A program made the translations under genes and the position numbers. From positions 558,001 through 622,000 of the forward strand of contig NZ_CP113939.1 in NCBI RefSeq assembly GCF_029392315.1: a stretch of DNA of 64,000 nucleotides, read 5' to 3'. Of this stretch, positions 1 to 47,106 are shown piece by piece. The DNA is from Bifidobacterium sp. ESL0690. GTDB taxonomy: Bacteria; Actinomycetota; Actinomycetes; Actinomycetales; Bifidobacteriaceae. A model generated the notes under the pieces. The model did not search any database, was not told the origin of the DNA, and worked only from the letters and a program-made list of their open reading frames with translations. Within the stretch, counting starts at the first letter, position 1. Each line of letters opens with the position of its first letter.

Positions 1-658
1 AAACACCGGCCAGGAACGCCGTCCACAGGTTGAGCGTCCACAACGCCATCAGGCTGCCGTTGGCATTGCCGAGTGGCGGAATAACGGCGATGACGTATTT
101 GAACGAGCCGAAAGTCTGTGTGAAACCTTGGGTGATGGTTTTGAGGCTCGGTACGATATGCGCGATGGTCGTGTCGTTCAGGGCGATGATGGGCCCGACG
201 AGGAACTGGGCGAGGACCAGGAAAACGATCTGCCACCACAGTTTCAGCGCCGGATTGACTCCGGCCAACGCAATCAGAACGCCAAGCAGCGCTGCCGGAA
301 TGGCTGCCATGGCCCAGACCAGAACGTTGCCGTAGACATCGATGAGATTGGCGGAATTGAGGCAGACGGCGACCAGAACGAGCAGCGCGCCGATGGCGGC
401 GGTGGCCCAGGGGCGGCGCACGGTGACGAACATTTGTCGCTGGCCGTTGCTGGTGGCGGTCAGGGCGATCGGGGCCCGGGTCGTGCTTGCCCACGTGCCG
501 GTGGTGTTGGTGCCGGTCGTGCCGGTGAAATCGGGGAGGGAGACCGAAGCGGAAGCAGCCGCAGAAGCAGAGCCGGAAGTCTTGGAACGGCTTGGATTCG
601 CTCGGCTCTGGCTTGTCCGGCCCGTCGGATTGATTGCCGCGTTAAAGGAATCGCTCAT
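1..658 (-). CDS. tgm: Transglutaminase-type membrane protein of the PFNA cluster, N-terminal part
   Basis: Partial gene: 219 codons lie in the window and the 3' part is beyond the left edge. A Ser/Ala/Thr-rich cytoplasmic tail (about residues 1-80) is followed by hydrophobic helices near 84-101, 111-133 and 140-161, with more hydrophobic sequence from about 186. The start ATG overlaps the stop of the DUF58 gene (ATGA), so the two are probably translationally coupled. In bifidobacterial PFNA clusters the gene after duf58 encodes a TgpA-like multi-pass protein with an extracytoplasmic transglutaminase domain. That domain is not visible here, so the identification rests on position and the membrane N-terminus. 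Confidence 0.75.
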   Translation of the reverse strand, partial: MSDSFNAAINPTGRTSQSRANPSRSKTSGSASAAASASVSLPDFTGTTGTNTTGTWASTTRAPIALTATSNGQRQMFVTVRRPWATAAIGALLVLVAVCLNSANLIDVYGNVLVWAMAAIPAALLGVLIALAGVNPALKLWWQIVFLVLAQFLVGPIIALNDTTIAHIVPSLKTITQGFTQTFGSFKYVIAVIPPLGNANGSLMALWTLNLWTAFLAGV

Positions 659-2022: not shown

Positions 2023-2032
2023 GGTCTTGCTT

Positions 2033-3640
2033 TCAGGCTCCCATGGCAGGGGCTGGGACGGATTCGACGATTTCGGAGACGACCTGTTCGGCGGTTTCGC
2101 CCTTGAACGCGGTTTCGGCGTTCAGAATGATGCGGTGGGCGAGCACCGGCACGGCGAGGTCCTGCACGTCGTCGGGGAGCACGTAGTCGCGTGCGTCGGC
2201 GGCGGCCCAGATGCGGGCGCAACGGGTCAGTGCCAGTGCGCCACGCATGGAGGAGCCCACGCGAAGTTTTTCGCTCAGCCTGGTGGCCTCGATGAGGCGT
2301 TCGATGTATTCAAGGATGCGGTCATCGACGCGCACGTCCTTGGCCGTCTTGCGCAGCCTGATGATGTCGTCGCCACTCAAAACCGCGGAAACGGTGTCGG
2401 CGCGGTCGGTGATGTCGATGTCCTTCAAGATGCCGATCGACACGTCGTGGCCGGGCGCGCCCACGGAGGTCTTGATGAGGAAGCGGTCCATCTGGGCCTC
2501 AGGCAGCTTATAGGTGCCAAGCTGTTCCAGCGGATTCTGGGTGGCGATGACGATGAACGGCTGCGGCATCGGGTAGGTCTTGCCGTCGACAGTCGTCTTC
2601 TGCTCTTCCATGACCTCCAGCAGTGCGGACTGGGTCTTCGGCGAAGCACGGTTGATCTCATCGGCCAGCACGATGGAGGCGAAGATCGGGCCCTCACGGA
2701 ATTCGAATTCGCCGGATTTCTGGTCGTAGAAGGTCACGCCGACTACGTCGCTCGGGAGCAGGTCGGGGGTGAACTGGATACGCTTGAACGAGGTGGCGAT
2801 GGAATTGGCCAGGCCTCGCGCCAGCTGCGTTTTGCCGGTGCCGGGGTTGTCTTCCAGCAACACGTGGCCGCCGACCATCAGCGCGGTGACGCACAGTTTG
2901 ATTGGTTCGGGCTTGCCGACCACGACCTTGCCGATGTTGTCGACCAGTGCGTCGAAGGAACGCTTGAATTCAAGAATGGAATCCTTGGGCGGGGTGATGA
3001 TCGTCGAAGCCGGCGTGGCCGCGGCGTACGGGGCCGAAAGCGAATCCGGGCTGACGGAAGCGTTGGGGGAGACCTGCGACTGGAAGCTGCCGGTTGACGA
3101 AGTGTATGACATTGAGGATGGTGCTTGGTAGCCACTTGGCGTCGGGTTCGTGGTATTGCCGGTGACGGGCGCCAGGTTTGCGGTTGCAGGAGTGGCGGAA
3201 GACGCGAAAGTAGCTGCAGAAGCGCTAGTAGAAGTCCCCGTGTAAGCACCGTCGGGAATTCCGGCAGGCGTGGCCGGAGAAGCAACATAGCTTCCGCCGG
3301 TTTGCGCGTCTAGCCCCGCGTCCGCAAAATTTTCAGTAGGAATGACCGGGGCATCGTTGTTGCTGCCGGGCATCGAGGTGCTCAATACAGTCTCTTCGGA
3401 GATGTCCTCATCCTCGCTGATGCCGTGGCTGATGGAACCAAGTACGGTGCTGTCGTCGCTCGGGTCAGTGGCCGTGTGCCTGGGTTCCCCCGAACGCTTC
3501 GGCAGCGAGGGGAACGCGCTGCCGCCGCCATTGGTCGTATCGTCGCCGGCGCTGAATTGCGGAAGATGGGCGGCTTCAGAAAGATGCGTGGCGTCCGAGA
3601 TTTGCGTCTCATCGTTGGGTTTCTCTGGATTGTTGCTCAT
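2033..3640 (-). CDS. MoxR-family AAA+ ATPase of the PFNA cluster
   Basis: 535 aa. The AAA core runs from about residue 220: Walker A EDNPGTGKT at 263-271, Walker B with LADEIN ending at 330, then the sensor sequence IATQNPLEQ. The first 215 residues are an unusual Ser/Thr/Ala/Pro-rich acidic extension with no visible domain; most MoxR proteins are about 320-350 aa and lack it. It may be a disordered linker or a substrate for the cluster kinase, which is inference. The start is supported by AAAGGAG a few bases upstream. It lies between the FN3 gene (87-base gap) and DUF58 (10-base gap), the standard MoxR-DUF58 pairing. Confidence 0.93.
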   Translation of the reverse strand: MSNNPEKPNDETQISDATHLSEAAHLPQFSAGDDTTNGGGSAFPSLPKRSGEPRHTATDPSDDSTVLGSISHGISEDEDISEETVLSTSMPGSNNDAPVIPTENFADAGLDAQTGGSYVASPATPAGIPDGAYTGTSTSASAATFASSATPATANLAPVTGNTTNPTPSGYQAPSSMSYTSSTGSFQSQVSPNASVSPDSLSAPYAAATPASTIITPPKDSILEFKRSFDALVDNIGKVVVGKPEPIKLCVTALMVGGHVLLEDNPGTGKTQLARGLANSIATSFKRIQFTPDLLPSDVVGVTFYDQKSGEFEFREGPIFASIVLADEINRASPKTQSALLEVMEEQKTTVDGKTYPMPQPFIVIATQNPLEQLGTYKLPEAQMDRFLIKTSVGAPGHDVSIGILKDIDITDRADTVSAVLSGDDIIRLRKTAKDVRVDDRILEYIERLIEATRLSEKLRVGSSMRGALALTRCARIWAAADARDYVLPDDVQDLAVPVLAHRIILNAETAFKGETAEQVVSEIVESVPAPAMGA

Positions 3641-3727
3641 CGATTCTCCTTTGTGATGGCTTTACGGCTTTTCTTGATGAGGTATTGGTTTGTTGGTTTA
3701 TAAAACAATCTGTATGGCTTCATGGGT

Positions 3728-6700
3728 TTACGACCTTGGTGACTGGAGCGCATGCTGGTCCGCAGCTCGCACATAGTCGTCCAACGTGAGCGTCTGGGCG
3801 AACACGCGAGGCGTCAGCGACTCGGAAGTGGGGGCCGGACGGGTCACCGATGTGGGGAATGTTGTTTTTTCGGTGTTGGCGTTGAGTTCGGATTCACTTG
3901 CGCTGGTCACCTTGATCTGCCAGGAATCTGGAGTGCCGGTGAAAGAACTGACATCAACGCTTGTCGTGCCTGCCGTCGGGGTAAAGCTTGCCGATGTGCC
4001 CCCGTCGTAGAGGATGAGCTCGACGGCTACATTGGCGCGACCGTATGTGTCGGGAAGCTTGCTGAGATTGATGTGGTCATGATCGGCCCAGGTGACAGTG
4101 ATGCCACTTACGTCAGCTGGCTTTTTCCAGAGATCGTTATTGCTCGCGCCGGCTTCGTCGCTATCGACTCCGTTCAAGGTCTGCTTGACGGCCTTGCTGC
4201 CACAGGACGTCCACGGCCCGGGAAGGTTATAGGTAGTCGGGCTGGTTGCTGGCGAGGCACCGATCTTGAATCCGGTGTGATCCCCGTTGGCTTCCCAGGT
4301 GAGTGTGCATACGCCGTTGTTTTGGGTCAGCTTCACATTGGCTGGCGGCGCCGGCTTATAACGTGGGGTCAGCGTGGCGGTCAGCGTCTTCGCGTCAGGA
4401 CCGTCTTTTCGCGGCGTGACGACGGCTGTGACGGTGAATGGATTGTTAAGAGCATCTCCGGGAACAGCGACGCTCGTCGTCGGCGAGGAACACGACACGG
4501 ATTGGCCATTGACACTGATGCTGTCGCATCCCGCATTGTGCATGTTTCCCAGAGTTATGGAGACGTCGATTTGCTTGGGGCTACTGCTGTTTTGCGCGGC
4601 TTGCATCGTCGGTCCGATGTCGCCCCAAGGCCCGTCCGCGTTCGACGATGTGCCGACAAGGCCGTCACCGGCGCGGTTGTGGCCGCGTACCGTCGCAGTG
4701 ACGTTCATGCCGTCGTTGATGGAGCCATCGCCGATGTCGAAGCTGCAGCTTGTGGCCGAGCCGTCGACGATTTTGGTGCCGGCCGCCCCGTTCAGGGCTA
4801 CAGTGTATTGGTCGGGCTTGGTGCCCACGTACGAAGCCGGATCCCAGGAGACGGTGATGGTGTGGTATCCGCCTTTCACCTTGATGCCGCTGGGCGCGTC
4901 GGGCACCTTGTCGGGCATGGCGTCCACACTGTTCGACGGCTTCGACCAGCCGGCCTCGTTCTTGGCCTTGACGCTGAAGCTGTAGTTCTTGCCGTTGGTT
5001 AGGCCTGTGATATTGCAGGTGGTCACCGCGCCGCAGGATTTGGCGTTGCCGTCATAGTCCACTTCGTAGTCGCTGATAGGGCTGCCGTTGGCTGTACCGG
5101 GCGTCCAGCTCAGGTTCACCGCACTGTCGGCGGGTTGTCCAGCTACTGGCGAGAGCAGCGGTGGAGCAGGCTTGTCGATGATCGAGACGGTGATGGTGGC
5201 GCTGACTTCACGTTCTTTGGTCTTGGTGGCGTCCTGCACATTGACAACGATGGTGTTCGACGATGCGCCGATGTCGGCGGCCGCGTGGATGCCGATGGAG
5301 CCCTTCGAGCCGCAGTCGACTTTGAGTTTCGCGGTATCGTCGGCCTGGCAGCTCACTACCGTCAGCGACGAGTTCGGGAACGGGTTGAAGGCCCCGTTGA
5401 GGATGTCGACGGTGGTGTCGTCGCCGGCGTTCATCCGCTTGTTGACCCCGGAAATCTGGGCGAGCGGGCGCGTGGATTGCACCACCTGCGCCGTCAGTCC
5501 CGCCGAAACGGTGCCGTTCGAATATTTGATGGTGATGGGAATACTCGACATCGACCCGACGGCGGCGTCAGTCGGTGCCTTCAACGTAAGCTTGCCGCCG
5601 CTGGTCAGATGCGATTCGATGGAACCGGAGGCTTCCCCGCCGGAATAGCTATAGTCCGTTTCGTCGTCATCCAGGCCGCTCGGGGCGTGGGTCAAGGCCG
5701 TCAGGTCGATGGTCTTGGCGTCCTCGCCGGCCGCCACGCTGATGGTGGAGGAGGAGAAGGTGGGCGGCGGCACGTTGCGGCCGATGACGGTGATGGGCAG
5801 TGTCAACACGGACGAATTGATGATCTTGGCCTGCTTTGAACCGTTCTTGTCTTTGCTGTTGTCGTCGCGCTTGCCGTCGGAGACCGTGAAAGTGATGGAA
5901 GCCGGGCCTGCATAATCCTTTGGCGCGGTGAACTTTAGGGTCTGGTCGTTGACGTAATAATCGGAATTATCGCTCTTGGTGGCGCTGATTGAGTTCTTGT
6001 CGACGTACGGTGTCTTGCCGGGGCCGACGCGCACGTAATCGGCGAGATTGATATTGACGCTGCGTTTCGCGTTCACCCTGATCGGCGGTGCCTTCGGACG
6101 CAGCATCGGCGGGAAGACGCCGTATTGCGGCACCTGGACGAAAGCCGTGGAAGTGATGTGATAGGTGGTGTTGGTCACCGTGTAAGGCACACTGCGCGCC
6201 TCGTTGGTGAGGTCGACGGTCACCGTGGTGGATTTCGCTCCGCCCTTGACGTGTGCGTGGTCGGCGGCCGTCGGGTCGATGCCGACCTTGAGTTCGTCGG
6301 CGGTGCCGGAGGGGTTCGCGATCCATTGCGAAAGGTCGACGTCCACGGATTTCTTGTCGAGCGTCGCGGCGGAAGGCACGCGGTAATCGTAGGCCGTGGG
6401 TGGCTCGATGGGTGCGTTCGGGTCGGTGATCACGGTCAACGTGGCGGTATCGGAAAGCCCTGCCTTGTCTTTGACGGTGTAGACGATGTATGACGTTCCT
6501 GCTTGAGCCGGCGTCTTGAACGAAATCATGTTGTCGGCCACATTGGCCCCGGTGATGCCTTGCATCATGAGGTTCTTGTCGACCTTGAGGTCGGTGTTGT
6601 CACCGGAGATATCGTTCTGGGCCACCGGCACATTGGCGGCGGTGTTGGGTCGCAGGGTCACCTGGTCGTCGCGTGCGTACACGCCGGAATCGGAGGTGCC

Positions 6701-9694
6701 CTTGTAGACGCCCACGCGAATCTGTGCCTGCGCTCGCTGGCCGGTCCAGTCTTCTACCGCGTAGGAGAAAGTATCGGTCCCTGATGAATCGCTATAGGCC
6801 TCGTAGACCATATAGTTCGCGCCGACTTCGTCGATACGTCCCATCTTCGGAGACTTGTCGCCAAGGCCAAGCAAGGTGTCGTCGTCGCCGTCGGTGTCGA
6901 TGCCGGTCAGCGTGATCGGGATACGCACCTTCTGTCCGGCCGCGACCTGCGCCTGCGTGTCCTGCGGGGTGGGGGCGGGCTTGTTGTTGGCGTCCTTGGC
7001 GTGCACGGTGATGGTGATGATGCCGGAGGCCGCGTTGCCGAGGTTGTCGCGCACGGTGTAGGTCACCGGGTAGACGCCCGGGGTATTCGAGGCCTGATAA
7101 CGCACGTCGTCGCCGGAAACGAAGACGAGGCCTTTGAAGGTCTTCTTGCTGAACTGCAAGGTGTTCTGCAGTTTCACCGTGGTGCCGTCGGCGTGGGAGA
7201 CGTGGTCGATTACGTCGACGCTGACGATGCCGCCCGTACGCACGTTGGCGTTGACATTGGCGGCTTTCGGCGCCGCGTTGGCGGTGGTCAGGGCCGGCGG
7301 CTGCAGCACGATGGTGCCGCGGGTGGAACCTGCCGCGTTGGCCACGGTATAGGTCAGCTTTACTGGCTTGGTCGGAATTTGTCGGGCGGTCATATAGACA
7401 CGCTTGTGGGCCACGAGCCCGGTTTTGATACCCAGTTTCGGGTCGACGTTGACGGAGGTCACCGAAAGCACGCCGCCCATCGGATCGGTGTCGTTGTTGA
7501 GCGGTTCGACGATGGCGGTGCGGTCGGCGCCCAGCAGCGCCACATCGTTGGCGGCCACCGGCTTGGCCGCTTCTCCGGCCACCGGCTGCACTTCCAATCG
7601 TGCCAGCCCTTGAGCCTCCACACTGCCTTGCGTGATGGTATACGGAACGTAATATGTACCGGGGTTGCTGGCCTTGAACGTGAAGGAAAGGTCGGCGGAA
7701 TTGGTCGACGTCGTGGTGCCGCTTGGAGTATTGACGGCGGAAAGCACGGGTGGCTGGGCGCTGGTGCCGTGCACGTATTGTTTGAGTTCCACGGTGGTGG
7801 AGGTGTCGGGTGTGGTGTTCTTGGTCACCGGGTCGATCAGCGCCGGAAGCGTGTTCGCCGGGCGTACGGAGAAATAGATGAGCCCCATACCGGTGTGCAT
7901 GCCGTCGGAGACGGTGACTTCCACACCCACGCGGCCCCCGGTCAGCGAGCCGGTGTTGAAGACGAGCTGGCCGTCGGCGCGGGTGGAGATGGCCACCTGG
8001 TCGTTGTTCTGCGCCACGGCGGAGACGAGCGTCATCGGGTCGCCTTCCGGGTCGCTGAAGCTGCCCAGCGCGTTGACGGTGAAGGTGGCTCCCTGCTCCA
8101 CGTCGTATTCGGGCGGGGTATCGGTCTGGGCCGGAGGCTGGTTGACGGTGCCCCCGGTGATGTTGAGATTGACCGTCGCGGAGCTGGACTGTCCGCGTCC
8201 GTCGTTGATTTCGTAAGTGAAGCTGGCCTTGCCCGCACTGGCGCCTGAGGCGTCAAGTTGCAAATAACGTCCGGAATAGATCGGGGCGACGGTGATGCCG
8301 GTGCCGGAAACGGGCCCGACCTTGGTGATGTGCAACACCGAGCAGTCGGTCTGTTCATCGTTGCGCAGCACGTCAAGGATTTCCTGGCCGCCCACGCGCG
8401 CGCCGAAATTATCGTCCTCGGCCTTGATCTCGCCGGACTTGGTGGAGCAGGTGGGTTTGAACTGCGTCTGGTTGTTGGCCGAGTCTGAGTTCTTCTGCTG
8501 GTTGGTGGTCTTCTTCGTTTCGATTTGACGCCATTGGATCTTGATGACCTTGTTGGACTGATCCGGGTTCCACACGTTGCCGTTGGTGATGTCGTTCAAG
8601 ACGACGAGCCGGTGGTTGGTGCGGAAGACGAGCTGCGAGGTCGGCGAGATGGATTGCAGGGTCTGCCATTGCGCCTGGGTGGTGTCGCCTTTGGCCTGGT
8701 CCGGGCTCGCGGCGCCGTCGGCGGAGCAAAGCCGGATATAGTTGTGCGCCTGCTGCGACCAAGCTGCATAGACACAGCCCTTGTTCGAGACGGGTTGTGC
8801 AGCATCGGCCGTGCCCTTGTTCATGAACGCGGCGGTTTTGTTGCTGTGCTTGAAATCGACGGTGAAAATGCCGTTGCGTGCGCTCGCGGCCACCCAGTCG
8901 CCCTGCGCGTCGTCGACGGCCGGGGCCTGGAGCATAACCGGTCCGCGCGAATCAATCTGCGCGCTGCCGCCTTGCCACATGATTTCCTGCTTGGTGGCGA
9001 TGACGGGTCGATCGCCAATGACGGTGAAGCTGTCGGCATTGGTCTCTTTGCCGTTGGTGATGGATTTGAGTGTTTTCGCCGCGCTGTGTGCGCTGTCCAT
9101 CTTGATTACTGCACCATCCGCCGGCCGGTAGCCGTAAACCGCGCCGTTGCGGTCGACGGCGAGAAGCCCGTGAGCCCCGAGCTGCATCTGAGGGGCGGAA
9201 GTCTTGGGCGCTATGGAATCGATGTTGTTTGAATCGCCGACCCACACGTTGCCGGTTTTATGGTTCAGAAACGCTGCAGTGGCCCCACCGATGAACGTCG
9301 AAGTGGAATTTTTGAGATCAGCCTTGCCGTGGATGCCGAGGTTTGAGGCGACGATGCCCTGCGCCTTCGCCCCGTCGGAGAGAATCACGTCGTCATCGTG
9401 CTGACTGACGTCGAAGGTCGGGGTGGTGGGGGCGACGGCCCCGTTGGCCTGCTGGAGCTTGACGTTGAAACGTGCGGCCTTGCGGTCTTTGAGCGAGGTG
9501 ACCCATACCGTGCCGTCGTCGAGGTGGACGTGCGTGCGCGTCAAGGTATTGATGATGATGGCCCCGGCCACGATGCCCAGCAGCAGGAGCAGTACGAGCA
9601 CCGGCGTCAGCCATCGACGATTGGTTTGTGAATTCAGGCGTCTCAAGGCAAGACGAATGCTATGCTCACCCTGTGGTTTGCGCGATGCCTTCAT
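3728..9694 (-). CDS. fn3: Giant membrane-anchored FN3/Ig-like repeat protein of the PFNA cluster
   Basis: 1988 aa. A short basic cytoplasmic N-terminus is followed by one hydrophobic anchor (about 31-50), with the rest probably outside the cell. About 60-400 resembles a beta-propeller-like or quinoprotein-like region. Next come many cadherin/VCBS-like beta domains with repeated D-x-D and NDG/SDG turns. Two fibronectin type III domains lie near 1540-1740, and an Ig-like tail follows. There is no sortase signal, so anchoring is by the N-terminal helix. GAAGGAAG precedes the ATG. In bifidobacteria the fn3 gene of this cluster has been proposed to act in adhesion or host interaction. It is by far the longest protein of the window. 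Confidence 0.9.
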   Translation of the reverse strand: MKASRKPQGEHSIRLALRRLNSQTNRRWLTPVLVLLLLLGIVAGAIIINTLTRTHVHLDDGTVWVTSLKDRKAARFNVKLQQANGAVAPTTPTFDVSQHDDDVILSDGAKAQGIVASNLGIHGKADLKNSTSTFIGGATAAFLNHKTGNVWVGDSNNIDSIAPKTSAPQMQLGAHGLLAVDRNGAVYGYRPADGAVIKMDSAHSAAKTLKSITNGKETNADSFTVIGDRPVIATKQEIMWQGGSAQIDSRGPVMLQAPAVDDAQGDWVAASARNGIFTVDFKHSNKTAAFMNKGTADAAQPVSNKGCVYAAWSQQAHNYIRLCSADGAASPDQAKGDTTQAQWQTLQSISPTSQLVFRTNHRLVVLNDITNGNVWNPDQSNKVIKIQWRQIETKKTTNQQKNSDSANNQTQFKPTCSTKSGEIKAEDDNFGARVGGQEILDVLRNDEQTDCSVLHITKVGPVSGTGITVAPIYSGRYLQLDASGASAGKASFTYEINDGRGQSSSATVNLNITGGTVNQPPAQTDTPPEYDVEQGATFTVNALGSFSDPEGDPMTLVSAVAQNNDQVAISTRADGQLVFNTGSLTGGRVGVEVTVSDGMHTGMGLIYFSVRPANTLPALIDPVTKNTTPDTSTTVELKQYVHGTSAQPPVLSAVNTPSGTTTSTNSADLSFTFKASNPGTYYVPYTITQGSVEAQGLARLEVQPVAGEAAKPVAANDVALLGADRTAIVEPLNNDTDPMGGVLSVTSVNVDPKLGIKTGLVAHKRVYMTARQIPTKPVKLTYTVANAAGSTRGTIVLQPPALTTANAAPKAANVNANVRTGGIVSVDVIDHVSHADGTTVKLQNTLQFSKKTFKGLVFVSGDDVRYQASNTPGVYPVTYTVRDNLGNAASGIITITVHAKDANNKPAPTPQDTQAQVAAGQKVRIPITLTGIDTDGDDDTLLGLGDKSPKMGRIDEVGANYMVYEAYSDSSGTDTFSYAVEDWTGQRAQAQIRVGVYKGTSDSGVYARDDQVTLRPNTAANVPVAQNDISGDNTDLKVDKNLMMQGITGANVADNMISFKTPAQAGTSYIVYTVKDKAGLSDTATLTVITDPNAPIEPPTAYDYRVPSAATLDKKSVDVDLSQWIANPSGTADELKVGIDPTAADHAHVKGGAKSTTVTVDLTNEARSVPYTVTNTTYHITSTAFVQVPQYGVFPPMLRPKAPPIRVNAKRSVNINLADYVRVGPGKTPYVDKNSISATKSDNSDYYVNDQTLKFTAPKDYAGPASITFTVSDGKRDDNSKDKNGSKQAKIINSSVLTLPITVIGRNVPPPTFSSSTISVAAGEDAKTIDLTALTHAPSGLDDDETDYSYSGGEASGSIESHLTSGGKLTLKAPTDAAVGSMSSIPITIKYSNGTVSAGLTAQVVQSTRPLAQISGVNKRMNAGDDTTVDILNGAFNPFPNSSLTVVSCQADDTAKLKVDCGSKGSIGIHAAADIGASSNTIVVNVQDATKTKEREVSATITVSIIDKPAPPLLSPVAGQPADSAVNLSWTPGTANGSPISDYEVDYDGNAKSCGAVTTCNITGLTNGKNYSFSVKAKNEAGWSKPSNSVDAMPDKVPDAPSGIKVKGGYHTITVSWDPASYVGTKPDQYTVALNGAAGTKIVDGSATSCSFDIGDGSINDGMNVTATVRGHNRAGDGLVGTSSNADGPWGDIGPTMQAAQNSSSPKQIDVSITLGNMHNAGCDSISVNGQSVSCSSPTTSVAVPGDALNNPFTVTAVVTPRKDGPDAKTLTATLTPRYKPAPPANVKLTQNNGVCTLTWEANGDHTGFKIGASPATSPTTYNLPGPWTSCGSKAVKQTLNGVDSDEAGASNNDLWKKPADVSGITVTWADHDHINLSKLPDTYGRANVAVELILYDGGTSASFTPTAGTTSVDVSSFTGTPDSWQIKVTSASESELNANTEKTTFPTSVTRPAPTSESLTPRVFAQTLTLDDYVRAADQHALQSPRS

Positions 9695-9835
9695 CAGCTG
9701 CTTCCTTCTTTTCCGTTAACCCGGCGGACTCACCCAAAATCCCTGCCGCTCGCCCAAAAACTTGCCTGCGTTTGCGCAGCTTCAATCGTTTGAGCGTTGC
9801 TTTTTACTGCTACGTTCGTCACTGCTTTTACTGCT

Positions 9836-11308
9836 TTACTGCTTCGTTACTACACAGGCCATTGCGGGAGTGGCAGACATATGTCCGTCAACTCTTACAA
9901 TACTAACCTGAATACACGTCTGTGGTTTACCGTTATTCACAATGAGGCTGACCTTCGGCTCTTTGACGATTGAGGTCTGGCTGCCGGGCGCTGCTGAGCC
10001 GTCCTGGACTTCCGCCCAAGCGTAGGTATCGCCGGCCTTCGGCTCCGGGTTGCTCCAAGTGAACGTCACATTCTGTCCGTCGGAGGTCCCCTTGAGATTC
10101 GTGGCTTGCGGTACTGCTGCTCCTGCGTCCTCGCTGGTGATGTCGTCCTTCGGCGCATCCTTCTGCCCGTTGTGGCCCTTCGAGCCGTTCTTGGCGGAGT
10201 CGGATTTTGTATTACCTGAATCGGCGCCCCCGTCATGCGGTGTCTGCATCGTGTTGATCTGGGTGCGGTCGTCCGATTTGCGGCTGTCCATTCGTGGCAT
10301 CACAACGAAAACGAAAGTGGATACGACGATGGCCACCGCGGCCAACGCGGCGATGGCGATGACCAGCGGCTTCTTCGAGCGCTTGCGCTTCGGCATAGCC
10401 ACCTTTGCCCCGAAACGTCCTTTGTTCGACTGCGGCATCGAATGATGCGGCGGGAATTCGTCGCAGTCCTCCGCCACGAACGGCGTCATGTTGAACCCGC
10501 AGTCTTGCTGCGCCTGCTGCAATGCCCGGCCGAACTGCTGCGCCGAAAGGTAGCGGGCGTCCGGGTCCTTGTCCATGGCCTTCAGAAGAATCTGCTCGAC
10601 CTCTTTGGGCACGTCGGGGATGGCGTTCTTCGGCAGCGGATCGGCGACGATATGCCGCGCCAGCTCGTTCTGTGTATGCGGGTGGAAAACGTATTCGTAG
10701 GGCGATTTGCCCGCCAGAAGCCCGTAAAGCGTGGCCGCCAACGAATAGATGTCGGAGGTTTCGGTGCCGCCGCCCTTGCCGGTCAGCACTTCCGGCGGGG
10801 CCCACGGCACAGAGAAGCCGGTGCGCGACTTGGCTTCGTAGATGCTGGTCGAAATGCCGAAATCGGAAAGCGCGGGCTGGTTGGCCGAAGTCACCAGAAT
10901 ATTGGCCGGTTTGATGTCGCGGTGGATGATGCCGTGGCGGTGCGCGGTCTGCAGGGCCCCGCTGAGCTTCACGCCGAGGTCGAGCACTTCGGCGACGCTG
11001 AGCCTGCGGCTGCGCATGATCTCCTTGTAGGAGCCGTGCGGCGCGTATTCGAGCACGAGGTAGGGCAGACGGGTCTCGTCGGTGAGCCCGGAGCCGTAAA
11101 TGGAGACGATATAAGGGTGCGCCGAAAGCTGGGCCATGATCTTGGCCTCTTTTTCGAACGCCTCGTCGAAGGTGCGGTCTTGCCTTGATTTGCCCACTTT
11201 GACGGCGACTTCGCGGTTGAGGTTGTGTTGGCGATAGAGGTACACGTCGGCCGTCGATCCGGCTCCCAGCTCGCGGATGAAATCACAATCGGGTATCGTC
11301 GGCGCCAT
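9836..11308 (-). CDS. pkb2: Membrane Ser/Thr protein kinase Pkb2
   Basis: 490 aa. An N-terminal Hanks-type kinase domain (about 10-265) has the glycine loop GAGSTADV (15-22), ATP lysine K37, catalytic HRDIKPAN (129-136), DFG (149-151) and the APPE-type motif near 170. A basic stretch precedes one transmembrane helix (about 314-336). The roughly 150-residue outer part holds a disordered Asp/Lys-rich linker and an FN3-like domain rather than PASTA repeats. This layout matches Pkb2, the PFNA kinase of bifidobacteria. The kinase probably senses an outside cue and phosphorylates cytoplasmic proteins. AGAAAGGG precedes the start. It is the first gene of the minus-strand cluster. Confidence 0.93.
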   Translation of the reverse strand: MAPTIPDCDFIRELGAGSTADVYLYRQHNLNREVAVKVGKSRQDRTFDEAFEKEAKIMAQLSAHPYIVSIYGSGLTDETRLPYLVLEYAPHGSYKEIMRSRRLSVAEVLDLGVKLSGALQTAHRHGIIHRDIKPANILVTSANQPALSDFGISTSIYEAKSRTGFSVPWAPPEVLTGKGGGTETSDIYSLAATLYGLLAGKSPYEYVFHPHTQNELARHIVADPLPKNAIPDVPKEVEQILLKAMDKDPDARYLSAQQFGRALQQAQQDCGFNMTPFVAEDCDEFPPHHSMPQSNKGRFGAKVAMPKRKRSKKPLVIAIAALAAVAIVVSTFVFVVMPRMDSRKSDDRTQINTMQTPHDGGADSGNTKSDSAKNGSKGHNGQKDAPKDDITSEDAGAAVPQATNLKGTSDGQNVTFTWSNPEPKAGDTYAWAEVQDGSAAPGSQTSIVKEPKVSLIVNNGKPQTCIQVSIVRVDGHMSATPAMACVVTKQ

Positions 11309-39097: not shown

Positions 39098-40816
39098 GTG
39101 TCTGATCCGCGAACGACAAAACATTGGGTCATCAAAGTCAATGGCTCCACGAAAGTCGATGTCGGTCCCGGCGAAAACGTTGAGATTGGCCGCAGGCCTT
39201 TGCGTCCGCTGAGCGATGACGGGCATCACCGTTTGGAGATTGACGACGATACGCGTTCCATGTCGAAGCGTCACGCGCTGTTTAGCGTCGCTTCCAATGG
39301 TGGGGCGTCGGTTACCGATCTCAATTCCACGAACGGCTCGTACGTAGTCGAGAAAAAAGGTTTGCGCCCGCTTACGCCAAATAAGGATTTCATTTTTCCG
39401 GATTCGCCGATGCGATTGCAGTTCGGCGACGTTCCCGTTGATTTTGTGCGTGTTGATGTCGATGAAAGTGATGAAGTCGGCCGCAAGATCACGGATTTGT
39501 TCGACTATGCGGTAAGCGGCGGTGAAAGTGCCGATATCGAGCCGGACCTGAACGAAATGTCCGTCGACGACATTTTGAATCTGCGCGCCGGCGAGCCGAC
39601 CACGGCTTTCAGCGCCGCGGATGTGGCCAGTCGTATCGAAGCCTCGGCTTCCGTTTCCTCTCCAGCGGATGATAGTGCTAGTGGCAATCCTCAAAATCCC
39701 GATGAACAGGCGGCTAAGAACGCCGATGGCAGCGCAAGCAAGAGTACGGATGAAAGTGCGTCGCCAGTTGTCGCCGAAACTGACAAGAAACGAGAAAACC
39801 CGCAGGCCGACCATACTATTGACCAGATTTCGCTCAACGTTGTGACCCCTGAACCGCAGGTTGAGGAGGCCAAAGCGCGCGATTTGTTCAAAGACGCCAT
39901 GCAGGGCGAAGCCGAAGTGAAAGCCGCTCAGCCAGGCATTGCCGCCAAGAAGACGACAAAGTCGGCAACGACTGGTGCTTCTGCCCCTGCCGAAAGTCAA
40001 AGCAGACCGTCACAAGCAAAGCCGCAGGCTCAGCAGGTGTCGTTGCCTTCTCGTCAGAGCAACGGGCAAAACCCCCAGAATGCTTCACACGCGCAACAGC
40101 CGATGGGTTCACCCGCAGCAATGCAACCGCAGGCCAATGCGAATGGCGTCAATAATAATGTCAACGTCAATGCAGGCGTCAATGGCAGCGTTTCGGCAGG
40201 TCAGTTCAATCCTCGAATGGCCAATGCTAAGAATGGTTCCGCTGCTCCTGGCCAGACTTTTGGAAATCAAGGCGCTCCAGTATTCGTCGCCATGGATGAA
40301 AATCCCAACCAAGGCAGCGGTGGCGGTGGCGACCGTCCCGGTTTGAATTTGGGCGGTTCGCAGGATCCGCAAAACGATGCGGCAGGCAGCAATGCTTCCC
40401 GGGAACGCAACAAATTCATGCCACCGATAACACAGGTCGCGGATACTTCAACGGTTTCCGCCGTTTCGGCTGCCGCTAACGGCGCGTTCGGTGCAGAGCA
40501 GACCTTCAAACCGAGTTTCGAACCCGGCTCGGTGTTTGAAAAGGTGTCGAACGGCGAATTCAACCAGCCGGAGCCCGAAGTTGAAGTGGACGGCATGAGC
40601 TCGCAGGAAGCCAAGCAAACCACGGACTTCTCTCTCCAGTTCGAAATGGCAAAGCATCCTGAACTTCTGCCGTTCCTGGCGATGAACCCTTCGTTGTATG
40701 ACGATTTGTATGCGTGGCTTTCGGCGGTAGGCAACGATGACATCGACACCGCGCTTTCGCAGAATTCGGGATATATCGAGTATCGTAATAAGGTCGGGGA
40801 GGGACGTAACCAATGA
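39098..40816 (+). CDS. FHA-domain protein with long disordered linker and variant leucine-rich-type C-terminus
   Basis: 572 aa. An N-terminal FHA domain (about 8-120) keeps the phosphothreonine-binding residues: G31-R32, S56-x-R58-H59 and the STNG at 77-80. The middle (about 150-490) is low-complexity, rich in Ala, Asn, Gln and Ser. The last 65 residues (HPELLPFLAMNPSLYDDLYAWLSAVG) resemble the variant leucine-rich repeat found at the ends of actinobacterial regulatory proteins. The start is GTG with GGGGAGG 7 bases upstream. Its stop overlaps the next start (ATGA). It is a plausible reader of Thr phosphorylation by kinases such as Pkb2, which is inference. Confidence 0.85.
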   Translation: MSDPRTTKHWVIKVNGSTKVDVGPGENVEIGRRPLRPLSDDGHHRLEIDDDTRSMSKRHALFSVASNGGASVTDLNSTNGSYVVEKKGLRPLTPNKDFIFPDSPMRLQFGDVPVDFVRVDVDESDEVGRKITDLFDYAVSGGESADIEPDLNEMSVDDILNLRAGEPTTAFSAADVASRIEASASVSSPADDSASGNPQNPDEQAAKNADGSASKSTDESASPVVAETDKKRENPQADHTIDQISLNVVTPEPQVEEAKARDLFKDAMQGEAEVKAAQPGIAAKKTTKSATTGASAPAESQSRPSQAKPQAQQVSLPSRQSNGQNPQNASHAQQPMGSPAAMQPQANANGVNNNVNVNAGVNGSVSAGQFNPRMANAKNGSAAPGQTFGNQGAPVFVAMDENPNQGSGGGGDRPGLNLGGSQDPQNDAAGSNASRERNKFMPPITQVADTSTVSAVSAAANGAFGAEQTFKPSFEPGSVFEKVSNGEFNQPEPEVEVDGMSSQEAKQTTDFSLQFEMAKHPELLPFLAMNPSLYDDLYAWLSAVGNDDIDTALSQNSGYIEYRNKVGEGRNQ

Positions 40817-43800
40817 GCGAGACGAACCAGACAATGAACGGCATCCAACGGATGCGCAAATGGTACGACAGTTATCGCAACGGACTTGTTCCTTCGCCTT
40901 TGGAAGACGTCGGGCAGCTCACCGCGCAACTCGACCTCACCCATGCTCATCCGTCCGGTATCGCGCAGCTTTTCGCCAGCGGGCACACCAGCCTTGATTC
41001 CATGTTCCGCGACGCCGGGATGCTCCGTGCCGCCGGCCGCAGGCTTGAACGCGTTCTCGACGACAAAGCCGTCAAAACGAGGTCCGCCGGAGTCGCCGAG
41101 CTTTCCCTGGTGGTGGGCGTGGCCACGTGGAAGGGCAATTCGGTTCCCGTCCTGCTGTACCCGGTCGAAGTGCACCGCAAACCGGATGGCCGCGAAACCG
41201 ATGCCATCATCCGTTTCACCGGGCACGTCAGCCTCAACCCTGCGTTCACAACGGCCATGCACGAACAGCATATCGATATCGATGAAGCCGCCCTCTTCGA
41301 CGGCAGGAACTATGCCAGCGGCACGCCCGACACGTCTTCCGTGTTTACTGCCATCACCGACGAGGTCAAGCCGACCATTGCCGATTTCGACATCGAGCGC
41401 AACATCATCCTGGGTTGCTTCATGGACCCGGCCACCAAGATGCTCGCCGAAAGTCGTCATATCATCGATTCTCTGGCAAGCAAGCCCAGCGGCAATGCGG
41501 CCCTTGACGCGCTGGCCGGTAACAAGGACGCCATCAATGCGTTGAAGGACTCGAAACTTCCGAGCTACAGCCCCTTCGATGCCGATCCCCACAGTGAGCA
41601 CGAGGCTGAGGACGTCGATAACGTCGTGCGCTATGCCGCGAATATGGCGGCGCAAGGCCATTCGCTGTTCTTGGATGACGCTTCTGGCAACGATACCGCA
41701 CAGATTGCCGCGTCTATCGCCTCCCGCTGCATTTCGTCGGGGCGGACCGTGCTTTACGTGCCGGGAGTAGCAGGGCAGAAGAAGCGTTTCACCCACGAAA
41801 TGGATGCCTGCCATATGGGCAGCCGCGTGATTGATATGGCTGATTCGAAGGCCGCCCGGCAGATCGATCAGGAGCTGATCGCAGCCGTTGGTTTCCAGCC
41901 TGGCGCTTCCGTCGCCCGTTTCGACCAGGTCTCCGATGAGCTTGTCGGAGTGCGCTCGCGTCTGACACGCTACCTTGGCGATTTGCACGGTGTGAGCAAG
42001 GAATGGGGTGTCTCCGCTTACCAGACCATCCAGAATCTTGCCAGCATCTCCGCCATGCCTACCCATCCGGCCACGCATGTCCGGCTTTCCAACGAATCCG
42101 CAAGGGCTATCGCCCCGCATATGGACGAGTGGATCAAGAAGCTTCGCAAGGCCGGCGAATACGGTGAATTCACCGTCGGCCCGCAAACCACACCGTGGTA
42201 TGGTGCCTCACTGTTCACCCAAAGCGAGGCGGTCAACGCCTATCAGAAGGTTGAGAACCTGCTGCAGCGCCTTCTTCCCGCCACGCGCGATCAGGTGGCG
42301 TCTGTCGCCGAAACCTGTGGTTTCCCGGTGCCGTCGACGGTGCAGGAGTGGGGCCGTCAGGTCACCGTATTGAAGAACCTGCGCCGCGTCCTCGACGTTT
42401 TCCAGCCCGAGATTTTCGAGCGTGACATCGAGGCGATGATCGAAGCCAGCAAACCCAAGGCCCAGCGTAAGGCCGAGGGGACGAGCATGGGCTTCTGGGA
42501 ACGCCGTCGTCATGTCAAGGAGGCCAAGAGCCTGTTGCGTGCCGGTTCTCAGGTGGAAGACCTGCACGAAGCGTTGCAGGTTGTGGACAAGCAGTCCGAG
42601 CAATGGCATGAGATCGTACCTCACGGCGGCTGGCCGGTGCTTCCGCCCAAACTCGACGCTATCGTGGAAACGCAGGAAGCCCTGATGCGCGACATCACCG
42701 CGCTCGATGCGGTGCTGGCCACCACCGTCGAAGGCGGCGACCTGCAAAGCGTCGATTTGGCCCGGCTTGAGGCCAGGCTCAAGGCGCTTTATACCGACCG
42801 CAAGGCGCTGGATACCCTGCCTGGCCGTGCCGGACTGGAACGCGAGTTCCATTCCGTCGGGCTTGACGGGCTGATTGAAGACATGCGTACCCGTCGCGTG
42901 GCTGTGGATGCCGTGGAAGGGGAGCTTCAGCTTTCTTGGTGGACGACCGTTTTCGAAGACATCGTTCGTTCCTCGGCGATTATTTCCAATCAGGACGGCT
43001 CCGCATTGCAATCTGCTGCCGACCGGTTCGTTCAGGTCGACATCGACCACGTCAATTCTGTTGGGCCGATGCTTGAGCAGGAGTCGATGCGCCACCTTTG
43101 CGATATGCTTTTCTCGCACACGCAGGAGGCCAACCAGTTGCACACGTTGCTGGCGAGCAACGCGCATATGCCGCTGAGCCATATCACCCGTGAATATCCG
43201 CAGATTCTTGCTGCGGCGAAGCCTGTCATCATGGCCACCCCCTTCACCCTTGCCGTGTTGAGCGACCCGCAGCCTCTGGCTGATGTGGCCATCATCGATG
43301 CCGCTTCACATATTCCTTCGCTTGAATTGCTGAGTGTTCTGAGCCGTGCCAGGCGCGTTGTGGTCATTGCCCATAAGGCCACGATTACTTCTGAATCGTT
43401 GAACGCCTTGACCGCGTTGTTGCCAAAGGTCACTGTCGATTCTCGGCCGGTTTGCCGTGACCCACGTCTTTCACTTTTCCTTTCCGCGCAAGGTTATGGC
43501 AACGCCCGCAGGGACGTGGCCACAGAATCGGTACAGGGCAGGGTGCGTTTCCACAGGGTTGAGGCCAATGGTGTGCCGGTGCTTTCCACGGGATTGGTGG
43601 AAAGCAGCCAGCAGGAGATCGACGAGGTCATCGCCATCATCAAGCAACGCGCTGCGGCTTTTACCGTCGTGCCGACCGGCTATCTGCTCGCCGTAGTCAC
43701 GTTGACCCCGGTCTTCCGCACGAGGCTCGGCGCCGAATTAAAGTCGCTTTCCCTGAAGGACGAGGCCATGGGCCGCTTCCTTCGCCACGTGCGTCTGGTG

Positions 43801-44430
43801 GACCTCGATGAGGTCGCCGGGGTGTGTGCCACCGACGTCATCCTTTCGCTGTGCTTTGCCAAGACCTCGCACGGACGCCTGCTCCAGCAGTTCGGCTCCG
43901 TGGAAGGGGAGGGCGGCGACGGCAAGCTGCTTGATGCTCTTGCCTTGGCCGATCGCAACGTCGATATCATCTCCGCTTTCGGCTCTGCCGACATGGAAGA
44001 CGATCGCCTCCACCAGCCAGGCCCGAAACTTTTAAAGGTCATGCTCAAATGGGCCGAGGGCCTAGGCAAGGAAGTGGTGCGTCCTTCGGTGTCGCTGAAG
44101 GGCGACAACGTCCTGTTCAACGATCTGGCAGACCGCATCCGTGCGCGTGGGCTCAGGGTGGCCGCCAATTACGGTTTCGATGGTGGAGCCTCTATTCCTC
44201 TGGTCGTCGGTCTGAAAGACAAGCCGTTCGCCCTCGCGGTGATGACCGATGATGCCCAGTTCATGGGCATCCAGTCCACCCGCAAACGTCATCGTGTACT
44301 GATGCAGGATTTGGCAACACTTGGTTGGTCGGTGATGACGGTCTGGAGCGTGGCCGCGTTCGTCAACCCTGATAAGGAAGTCGATCGAATCGTCAGCCGT
44401 ATCAGCGATCTCTATCAAGAGGTCCGTTGA
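40813..44430 (+). CDS. Large pseudo-helicase-nuclease (degenerate SF1 helicase + endonuclease-like domain)
   Basis: 1205 aa. The order resembles DUF4011 / AAA SF1 helicase / MTES1575-Vsr-like nuclease proteins known in bacterial defence, but the catalytic residues look lost. The Walker A position reads DDASGNDT (288-295) in place of GPPGTGKS. Motif II reads DAAS (829-832) for DEAS. The motif VI region reads LDALALADR (1040-1048) for LNVAITRAR. The C-terminal nuclease-like domain (about 1100-1200) lacks the Asp and E-x-K pattern. An N-terminal DUF4011-like beta region (about 95-140) and a central coiled coil are present. It is translationally coupled to the FHA gene and the next small gene. 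I infer a scaffold or regulatory role; the family assignment is by eye. Confidence 0.75.
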   Translation: MSETNQTMNGIQRMRKWYDSYRNGLVPSPLEDVGQLTAQLDLTHAHPSGIAQLFASGHTSLDSMFRDAGMLRAAGRRLERVLDDKAVKTRSAGVAELSLVVGVATWKGNSVPVLLYPVEVHRKPDGRETDAIIRFTGHVSLNPAFTTAMHEQHIDIDEAALFDGRNYASGTPDTSSVFTAITDEVKPTIADFDIERNIILGCFMDPATKMLAESRHIIDSLASKPSGNAALDALAGNKDAINALKDSKLPSYSPFDADPHSEHEAEDVDNVVRYAANMAAQGHSLFLDDASGNDTAQIAASIASRCISSGRTVLYVPGVAGQKKRFTHEMDACHMGSRVIDMADSKAARQIDQELIAAVGFQPGASVARFDQVSDELVGVRSRLTRYLGDLHGVSKEWGVSAYQTIQNLASISAMPTHPATHVRLSNESARAIAPHMDEWIKKLRKAGEYGEFTVGPQTTPWYGASLFTQSEAVNAYQKVENLLQRLLPATRDQVASVAETCGFPVPSTVQEWGRQVTVLKNLRRVLDVFQPEIFERDIEAMIEASKPKAQRKAEGTSMGFWERRRHVKEAKSLLRAGSQVEDLHEALQVVDKQSEQWHEIVPHGGWPVLPPKLDAIVETQEALMRDITALDAVLATTVEGGDLQSVDLARLEARLKALYTDRKALDTLPGRAGLEREFHSVGLDGLIEDMRTRRVAVDAVEGELQLSWWTTVFEDIVRSSAIISNQDGSALQSAADRFVQVDIDHVNSVGPMLEQESMRHLCDMLFSHTQEANQLHTLLASNAHMPLSHITREYPQILAAAKPVIMATPFTLAVLSDPQPLADVAIIDAASHIPSLELLSVLSRARRVVVIAHKATITSESLNALTALLPKVTVDSRPVCRDPRLSLFLSAQGYGNARRDVATESVQGRVRFHRVEANGVPVLSTGLVESSQQEIDEVIAIIKQRAAAFTVVPTGYLLAVVTLTPVFRTRLGAELKSLSLKDEAMGRFLRHVRLVDLDEVAGVCATDVILSLCFAKTSHGRLLQQFGSVEGEGGDGKLLDALALADRNVDIISAFGSADMEDDRLHQPGPKLLKVMLKWAEGLGKEVVRPSVSLKGDNVLFNDLADRIRARGLRVAANYGFDGGASIPLVVGLKDKPFALAVMTDDAQFMGIQSTRKRHRVLMQDLATLGWSVMTVWSVAAFVNPDKEVDRIVSRISDLYQEVR

Positions 44431-44636
44431 TGGCTCTGTCCTATGACCCTAATCGCCGTTCGTCGCGTACCCACAAGCGTGTGGTGCGCAAAGGCAGTGA
44501 ACGCTTCGATGTTGATGGCGTAGAACTCGACCCGGAAGACCGCCGTCCGAAGGGCAGCAAGCAGCATGACGATGACAACCGTATCCTGCGCGAACTGCCT
44601 CCGCATTGGGGCATTTTCAGCGAACGGGACAAGTAA
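44430..44636 (+). CDS. Small basic protein of the FHA cluster, unknown
   Basis: 68 aa, strongly charged (Arg/Lys/Asp-rich: NRRSSRTHKRVVRKG; PEDRRPKGSKQHDDDN), with a conserved-looking end PPHWGIFSERDK. No family recognised. The ATG shares a base with the stop of the pseudo-helicase gene, so translation is coupled; a terminator follows. It is third and last in the cluster. Confidence 0.75.
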   Translation: MALSYDPNRRSSRTHKRVVRKGSERFDVDGVELDPEDRRPKGSKQHDDDNRILRELPPHWGIFSERDK

Positions 44637-44752: not shown

Positions 44753-45568
44753 TTAGAATTTGGCGGCCATAATCGGCATGCGCTCCTGCACCGCCATGAT
44801 GCGCGCAGCGTCCTGCGGCGGCATGGCAAATTGCGTGGTGACATTGCCACCATCATCGCGATGTGGATTGCCGGTGACAGTCGCGAGTTTGACCAGCATG
44901 CAGGTCTGTCCATCCGATTGCGTGGGCATCTCCTCGCCTGGTACTTCGGCATTGTCGTCCGTCTCGCCTCCGCTCTCACTGGCCTCACTCTGTCCTTGTG
45001 CCGCTTCCTCTTCTGCACCGCTTTCATCAGAGAGATTTGCTGTAGGGTTGGCTGCAGGCTGTTGTTTTGCAGCGGAGCTTTGAGCTGGTGGATTTGGCAC
45101 GGCGCTGCATCCCGCGCTGCCGACAAGCGCGACCCTGTTACCGGGAATCAAGCCGGTTGACGACCCACTGAGTTTGACGCCGATGGTGGTCAATCCATGC
45201 CCGATTACCGGCGAAGCCCGCGCCATGGGCCGGGCGATCAAGCTGCCGGTTTCAATATTCACCTGCGCAATCAGCCCTTTAGCGTCATCGGTGGTGCTGA
45301 ACGTATTCGCCAAGGCCGGGCTGTCGGCTATTTGTACGGTTTTGAGATCGTCCGCGCGGATAGTCTGCCCGCGTTTGATGGCATGGCTCGCGGTCACTGC
45401 GGTTTTGGTCGCAACGCTGCTGGAGATTGACTGCAACGCAAAGAAAACCGCGAGTCCGGCACATAGAGCGGCCAGCACGGTACGCGTCTGCCGCATGGCG
45501 CGTCGCTGCTTGAGCGTCGGTTTCCTGACGCTTAAGCCTTCTTTGTTTGTATGATGAAAAAGGTCCAT
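44753..45568 (-). CDS. SAF-domain membrane protein (CpaB-like)
   Basis: 271 aa. A basic N-terminus and one membrane helix (about 28-48) are followed by an extracytoplasmic SAF domain (SHAIKRGQTIRADDLKTVQI) and a long acidic, Ser/Ala-rich low-complexity stretch before the last conserved part. SAF domains occur in pilus-assembly protein CpaB and in flagellar P-ring proteins. In actinobacteria a solitary SAF gene commonly sits beside fmdB and 5-formyl-THF cyclo-ligase, as here, with unknown function. I chose ATG 45568; an upstream TTG would add 35 residues of doubtful value. Confidence 0.75.
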   Translation of the reverse strand: MDLFHHTNKEGLSVRKPTLKQRRAMRQTRTVLAALCAGLAVFFALQSISSSVATKTAVTASHAIKRGQTIRADDLKTVQIADSPALANTFSTTDDAKGLIAQVNIETGSLIARPMARASPVIGHGLTTIGVKLSGSSTGLIPGNRVALVGSAGCSAVPNPPAQSSAAKQQPAANPTANLSDESGAEEEAAQGQSEASESGGETDDNAEVPGEEMPTQSDGQTCMLVKLATVTGNPHRDDGGNVTTQFAMPPQDAARIMAVQERMPIMAAKF

Positions 45569-45811
45569 GACTCTATGATGAACCAAAACGCAAAATTTCC
45601 GAGGCAAAAACGGGTACTGTGGTCGGATGATAGGGCTTATCAACATTTGAGGCGTGTCGCGGTGGAGCAACAAAACCAGTTATCCACATCAAAATAATCA
45701 AGTGGCAGTCTGGATTATTGTTTCTGTGCGGGTCAAGAAGCAAGAAAAGTGAAAGCCGGCACCTGCATCAAAAGCAAGTTACCGGCCTTTTTAAAATTCA
45801 ATTATCCGCAA

Positions 45812-46015
45812 TTATTCTTTCGACGAAGACGACGAACCGCCTTTGTCGGTGCGGTAGAAACCGTGCCCCTTGAACTCGATGGGAACTGCGGAATAGACCT
45901 TGCGCACCTGCTCCTTGCCGCATTTCGGGCAGACGGTGATGGGGTCGTCGGAGAATGACTGCTGCTCGGTGAAATCGTATCCACAATTCTTGCAACGGTA
46001 ATGATAAGTAGGCAA
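45812..46015 (-). CDS. FmdB-family zinc-ribbon protein
   Basis: 67 aa. The zinc ribbon has cysteines C8, C11, C29 and C32 (CKNC and CPKC), followed by a conserved YSAVPIEFKGHGFY and a Ser-rich tail. The family is a putative regulator and its target is unknown. It lies between the SAF gene and the cyclo-ligase gene on the same strand; the 252-bp gap towards the cyclo-ligase shows no clear feature. Confidence 0.9.
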   Translation of the reverse strand: MPTYHYRCKNCGYDFTEQQSFSDDPITVCPKCGKEQVRKVYSAVPIEFKGHGFYRTDKGGSSSSSKE

Positions 46016-46267: not shown

Positions 46268-47053
46268 TTACTGCAATATGATGATTCGCTTATTCGTTAT
46301 CACTGTATTGACCGGAATATCATGGACTTCACGAGGCACAGCGCCGTGACGATTGATGAATTCCCAGTCCCAGCAGACCCCGATTTTAATCGCATCGGCG
46401 CGGCAAAGACCAAGAACCTGATCGTACCAACCGCCACCGCGCCCGAGCCGAGTGCCATCAAGGTCGATGGCGAAAGCGGGTATAAAGACGATTTTCGCGT
46501 CGGCGATGGCTTCGGGCTCCAATGTCTTGCCGTCGGGTTCTGCGGGTCTCAGTCCGCCCGTAGCGGTATGCGGCATTTTGTGTAATCCAGACTTTCCGCC
46601 ATATTTGCTCCAACCGATATCGCGCCCGCTGCCGAGTTGCGGCACCAGCACTCGCAACTCACACTCGTCTAGTTCATCGAGCAATCCGAACGTCGACACT
46701 TCCGTCCCCATCGAAACGTACGCCGCGACCATGTCTCCGGGCTTCAGGGCGGTGGTTAGCCAGTTGGTGTTGATGGGAACGGAGAGATTGATACCAATGT
46801 CATTCGAATCATTGGTGTCTATAGTCACGGAATGATCGACATCATTCACTTCGTTGGTAGTAGGACCGATATCCGCGCGGAAATCTTCACCCTCCTGGCC
46901 ATTCAACAGACCATTCAGCAGCTGTGCAGCAAGTTCTCCCAATCGCACGCCCGCCTCTGCCCGCTCGTCTTCACCGACTTCCTTGCGTCTGCCAATGGCC
47001 TCACGCCGCATATTTTGTTTCAACGTATCAATGTTTTCCGTACTGCCGCTCAT
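46268..47053 (-). CDS. 5-formyltetrahydrofolate cyclo-ligase
   Basis: 261 aa. Converts 5-formyl-THF to 5,10-methenyl-THF using ATP. The family signature IDLDGTRLGRGGGWYD is present near the C-terminus, and the N-terminal basic helix (MRREAIGRRKEV) fits. An Asn/Asp/Thr-rich insertion of about 35 residues (near 60-95) is not typical. ATG 47053 is the best start; a TTG 13 codons earlier gives a longer form. It is divergent from the surface-protein gene. Confidence 0.88.
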   Translation of the reverse strand: MSGSTENIDTLKQNMRREAIGRRKEVGEDERAEAGVRLGELAAQLLNGLLNGQEGEDFRADIGPTTNEVNDVDHSVTIDTNDSNDIGINLSVPINTNWLTTALKPGDMVAAYVSMGTEVSTFGLLDELDECELRVLVPQLGSGRDIGWSKYGGKSGLHKMPHTATGGLRPAEPDGKTLEPEAIADAKIVFIPAFAIDLDGTRLGRGGGWYDQVLGLCRADAIKIGVCWDWEFINRHGAVPREVHDIPVNTVITNKRIIILQ

Positions 47054-47106
47054 ATTTTCATCGTATACGATGAAAAATCGTCCGTGGTTCAATAAGCTGA
47101 CGTTTC

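Follow-up and report, generated by a model that had tools for sequence, protein, structure and literature searches.

Why should a gene that has lost the active sites of both a helicase and a nuclease be kept at full length and coupled to two other genes? The question was raised by a locus in a 64,000-nucleotide stretch of DNA from Bifidobacterium sp. ESL0690 (NZ_CP113939.1, positions 558,001 to 622,000; hereafter the window), in which three genes follow one another on the + strand with overlaps of 4 and 1 bases. The first (39098..40816), which starts at a GTG with GGAGG close by, encodes a 572-amino-acid FHA-LRV adaptor protein with an N-terminal FHA domain, a long low-complexity linker and a C-terminal LRV_2 domain. 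Its end shares ATGA with the start of the second gene (40813..44430), which encodes a 1205-residue pseudohelicase-pseudonuclease, here called the pseudohelicase; the third (44430..44636) encodes a 68-residue tail protein from the ATG within TGATG (the mechanical open reading frame (ORF) call, from a TTG at 44427, gave 69 residues). These coordinates confirmed the coupling by ATGA and TGATG that a first-pass annotation of the window had described. We favor, at a rough probability of 0.55, the reading that the pseudohelicase is a non-catalytic platform with a docking tail marked by the motif RPPHW, tied in Bifidobacteriaceae to Ser/Thr phosphorylation by the FHA-LRV protein.

The pseudohelicase combines a helicase fold with a Vsr-like nuclease domain and has kept the residues for neither ATP hydrolysis nor DNA cutting. 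Its MTES_1575 (Vsr-like restriction endonuclease) domain, residues 1104 to 1197 (44122..44403, + strand), scored 43.0 bits in Pfam against a gathering cut-off of 38.2 (E value 4.8e-11), and sub-threshold profile matches were obtained to ProA, Hhe and PDC-S37. A search of solved structures by sequence gave no meaningful match for the protein, and its best protein matches were Bifidobacterium proteins labelled helicase. The structure prediction and Foldseek comparison proposed as a check in the first-pass annotation returned a superfamily 1 (SF1) helicase fold of the UPF1/IGHMBP2/Dna2 type, with two RecA-like domains in a UPF1-like arrangement; unlike the UPF1, IGHMBP2, SETX and Dna2 helicases, however, the protein has no Walker A lysine (GKS/GKT), DE box or motif VI arginine. 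As the structural matches in a fold search of the whole model covered only residues 5 to 1089, the nuclease domain is placed by the Pfam match and the alignment. The DUF4011–SF1 helicase–MTES_1575 plan assigned at first pass was thus borne out by the domain match, the sub-threshold matches and the fold.

Motif columns were defined by alignment to an intact homologue, L069. Walker A, GPPGTGKSQT in L069, reads DASGNDTAQI in the same columns of the pseudohelicase (former Walker A region DDASGNDT, residues 288 to 295, 41674..41697, + strand); motif II, FDEAS, reads IDAAS (IIDAASH, residues 827 to 833, 43291..43311, + strand); and motif VI, ITRSRR, reads LALADR with loss of the arginine (residues 1043 to 1048, 43939..43956, + strand). 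In the nuclease domain PIDLAV and VAVETDG are replaced by SIPLVV and LAVMTDD, so that P and M occupy the columns of the D and E of IDL and ETDG, which we take to be the catalytic residues. The same losses, in Walker A, motif II, motif VI and the nuclease, had been read from the window at first pass, and the alignment upheld all of them.

A gene that has lost every catalytic motif could simply be decaying, a defence gene not yet deleted, but this explanation is very improbable. The ratio of nonsynonymous to synonymous substitution rates (dN/dS) of the pseudohelicase against six relatives was 0.035, 0.041, 0.046, 0.059, 0.059 and 0.057, which refutes decay, barring a long overlapping constraint that could account for the ratio; there was no internal stop among the family matches listed, and the dead state extends over 78 of 89 relatives. 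The gene is single-copy in its own genome. With presence defined as a match to the window protein at E <= 0.001, which may include a few other DUF4011 proteins, it was found in 143 of 151 family genomes (128 of the 130 of good quality) and 292 of 297 genomes of the order (279 of the 281 of good quality), and 30 of 30 additional selected order genomes matched at E <= 1e-50. At class level some match at E <= 0.001 was obtained in 150 of 246; among the matches listed, those that were full-length and lay beyond the order belonged to 21 genomes of one family (f38) and one each of two others (f25 and f45). The pseudohelicase gene belongs to the core of the entire order Actinomycetales, where it is inherited vertically under strong purifying selection, and the low dN/dS and wide spread rule out decay of the local copy, in support of the first-pass argument from intact length and coupling.

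The order also contains intact orthologues. L069 and L072 retain every motif and lie in the same chromosomal setting as the window gene, which in the window begins with a convergent gene for a Pfam SAF-domain protein (44753..45673, − strand) and continues with genes that we presume to be FmdB-like (45812-46015) and 5-formyltetrahydrofolate cyclo-ligase-like (46268-47092); one or both of the latter lay downstream and convergent at 16 of 20 order loci, including L069 and L072. The homologue of Phycicoccus sp. Soil802 (L210) was identical to L069 across the query. Orthologues with intact motifs had been named at first pass as a sign that this copy is simply mutated; they exist, but 78 of the 89 family sequences lack the ATPase residues and selection is strong, so simple mutation of one copy does not describe the family.

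In a tree of 100 sequences, the 89 family rows grouped apart (support 100) from 11 outgroup sequences of ProA/Hhe type, all of them intact. The ATPase K, D and E were kept in 11 of the 89 rows; parsimony gave two changes with a dead clade of 77 rows (support 89), and a 44-row mixture-model tree again gave two (support 92). Both nuclease residues were retained in 7 of the 78 ATPase-dead rows, whereas in a 29-row clade that includes the window protein (support 100) both were lost, with the motif VI arginine, in 29 of 29; therefore the ATPase was generally lost first. Because the FHA gene was seen only in Bifidobacteriaceae, death of the ATPase must long predate its arrival. The first-pass view of a defence effector tamed within this operon accordingly gave way to that of an order-wide core gene whose ATPase was dead well before the FHA gene joined it. 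Among 40 named Dermatophilaceae-like loci (L180-L219), the Walker lysine was present in 37; in the other three (L211, GATQT; L215 and L216, GRTQT) it appears to have been lost recently.

Site-by-site conservation was scored as percentiles of 8-mers from 39 Bifidobacterium sequences, and in a second set of 85 sequences with non-Bifidobacterium relatives added. In the first set the Walker A stretch fell at the 7th percentile, motif VI at the 35th and motif II at the 51st; motif V reached the 94th and the N-terminal HPSG region the 96th, and a basic helical region was also conserved, unlike the ATP site. These values bear on the possibility that catalysis is cryptic, non-canonical residues still processing ATP or nucleic acid, or a degenerate ATP site binding nucleotide as a switch without turnover. 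Arthrobacter and its relatives would fit such a scheme: the lysine is replaced by glutamine at 40 of 40 loci (L220-L259) in a uniform GQTQT whose loop is otherwise preserved, a pattern suggesting that nucleotide is bound there but not hydrolysed, and the seven ATPase-dead rows with both nuclease residues lend it some weight. In Bifidobacterium, however, the loop is variable, and the nuclease residues are both replaced throughout the 29-row clade; we judge cryptic catalysis to be improbable.

The pseudohelicase might instead have retained an immune role as a catalytically inactive sensor or guard, recognizing phage or damaged nucleic acid, passing the signal on through its FHA partner and leaving the cutting to others. 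Its nearest profile relatives are the anti-phage proteins ProA (PDC-S37) and Hhe, which have the same arrangement of domains and recognizable homology over the length of the chain, and motifs were intact in all 11 outgroup sequences of this kind. Those proteins are 1690-2433 residues long; the window protein is shorter, dead, order-wide and RPPHW-tailed. It also scored far below the curated cut-offs, at 182.8 bits against 1500 for ProA (NCBIfam NF058533; even intact L069 reached just 807.2) and 46.6 against 2000 for Hhe (NF042953), and membership of either family was rejected. Defence genes are usually patchy in distribution, whereas this one is inherited as a core gene in a conserved setting. 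An immune role is therefore unlikely, if somewhat less so than cryptic catalysis. Of the first-pass proposal that a defence effector had become a scaffold or sensor working with a phosphopeptide reader, the dead enzyme, the FHA coupling and the non-catalytic direction stood; the recent defence origin and the third component did not.

That third component was the tail protein, described at first pass as a separate small basic protein. No known family was found for it in profile searches, and across the order the downstream ORFs have in common only a C-terminal signature, approximately (D)xRLLRERPPHW(G) and sometimes ending in PPHY or PPHF. In the window protein it occupies residues 47 to 61 (DDDNRILRELPPHWG; 44568..44612, + strand). 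A short ORF bearing the signature follows the helicase gene in most relatives, and in others it joins the same chain: of the 89 family rows, 64 carry it on a separate ORF and 12 as the C-terminus of the helicase itself, while it was not detected in 13, and the state has switched at least seven times; among 80 named loci it was fused in 54 and separate in 22, and of the other four loci three are truncated and L202 shows no tail. The fused copies weaken the case for an independent third protein. In Bifidobacteriaceae similarity identified the tail ORF at 49 of 51 loci and PPHF at the other two, and its dN/dS was about 0.03-0.08 against seven relatives. In family f38 (L090, L102, L104 and L106) the tail ORF lay approximately 700-930 bases past the helicase gene and did not adjoin it. 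No other PPHW-tailed protein of this genome was supported: the sole further DNA match to the codon pattern CCNCCNCAYTGG, a search that did not extend to PPHY or PPHF, was antisense in an AMP-ligase-like gene.

The FHA-LRV gene is linked to the helicase-like gene in Bifidobacteriaceae. Its FHA domain (residues 30 to 87, 39185..39358, + strand) scored 28.9 bits against a Pfam cut-off of 20.7 (PF00498), and its LRV_2 domain (residues 506 to 555, 40613..40762, + strand), which the first-pass account lacked, 43.3 against 27 (PF25591). The residues G-R, S-x-x-H and S-T-N-G, presumably those that bind phosphothreonine, were retained in 20 of 20 relatives, consistent with the FHA domain being intact as first described. 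The LRV_2 region could be aligned in 19 of the 20, L164 differing at its end; in that locus (and L014; relative G109) the end of the FHA gene aligns badly and its C-terminal part lies in an ORF of its own, apparently because of a frameshift or an error in the assembly. FHA was present at 51 of 51 Bifidobacteriaceae loci and upstream of the helicase gene at none of 19 order loci with upstream sequence (the 20th, L063, begins at a contig end). Across family genomes it was matched in 137 of 151 (E <= 1e-10), and all eight genomes without the helicase also lacked FHA; two of the family genomes in which neither gene appears among the matches, G007 and G056, are 99% and 95% complete.

It had also been suggested that the FHA protein acts downstream of the kinase Pkb2. 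A Pkb2-like kinase lies approximately 28 kilobases from the FHA gene on the opposite strand, within a PFNA-type set (655-11308, − strand) that comprises DUF58, a MoxR-like AAA protein, a 1988-residue Fn3/Big_9 protein and the Ser/Thr kinase, and this position excludes an operon link here, though not a signalling one. In some species the PFNA cluster itself holds another fha gene (PMC8430577). Several threonines of the pseudohelicase, among them T174, T857, T859 and T1156, are conserved in the 39 Bifidobacterium sequences and rare elsewhere; they are possible FHA ligands, and we draw no claim from them.

Because the catalytic residues are lost while the gene and its small partner are kept in almost all relatives examined, a scaffold role is probable. 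We propose that the pseudohelicase would serve as a clamp-like platform that grips nucleic acid, partner proteins or both without using ATP, since conservation persists at motif V, in the N-terminal HPSG region and in the basic helical region but not at the ATP site. The RPPHW tail, in cis on the same chain or in trans through translational coupling, would dock a putative conserved partner, and in Bifidobacteriaceae the co-translated FHA-LRV protein would tie the platform to Ser/Thr phosphorylation by recognizing a phosphothreonine carried by the platform or by a client.

Several observations limit this platform reading or weigh against it. The case for nucleic-acid binding is drawn from conservation; Walker A was average (52nd percentile) in the 85-sequence set, so some ligand may still occupy the site in other lineages; and Foldseek template modelling scores against single solved chains were low (0.13-0.31 by query length), which we attribute to the large size of the 1205-residue model. 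The single 77-row dead clade has support of only 89 and 92, and five dead rows (L073, L121, L122, L125 and L151) carry the same family code, f17, as eight intact ones, which makes more than two ATPase losses likely. A strict rule left 13 of 89 rows without a tail, some of them with little downstream sequence and one (L109) positive by a looser rule. In the intact fused homologue L214, modelled over residues 126-1325 with the first 125 left out, the tail was predicted to be flexible, with one short helix, and did not dock on the rest of the chain (predicted local distance difference test score approximately 28-46). Six family genomes had a divergent or partial helicase match and no FHA match.

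Non-catalytic use of a helicase fold has a parallel in the PriA pseudohelicase of Deinococcus radiodurans, in which the fold is reportedly likewise retained for a cell function; that case concerns another helicase family and one lineage, whereas the loss described here is order-wide and includes the nuclease. A DUF4011 core gene of P. aeruginosa beside a small conserved gene (cDHS1 flank, PMC10250203) is similar in gene arrangement. Literature searches on DUF4011, Hhe, PDC-S37, MTES_1575, pseudohelicases, Bifidobacterium FHA/Pkb2, essential genes and signature proteins found no account of this protein among the titles listed; dead helicases with a role are already known, but the same searches turned up no dead helicase-nuclease that spans an order, has living intermediates and carries a tail either fused or split.

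A near-universal gene of a large bacterial group that includes gut bifidobacteria is annotated, in the entries listed, only as helicase or hypothetical protein, and its motifs rule out a working helicase. More tentatively, and with the odds somewhat against so broad a statement, the pseudohelicase may be a previously undescribed core nucleoprotein platform of Actinomycetales with a universal RPPH(W/Y/F) docking tail and a broadly conserved partner, to which Bifidobacteriaceae would have added Ser/Thr-kinase control through the FHA-LRV reader. On that view selection would repeatedly have turned the enzyme into a scaffold by stripping it of catalysis, and orthologues survive today at the intact, half-dead and fully dead stages; as intact, ATPase-dead and fully dead forms occur at the same locus, the change can be traced stepwise. 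The RPPHW tail offers a bait for the partner, and phospho-signalling in bifidobacteria can be approached through the FHA gene.
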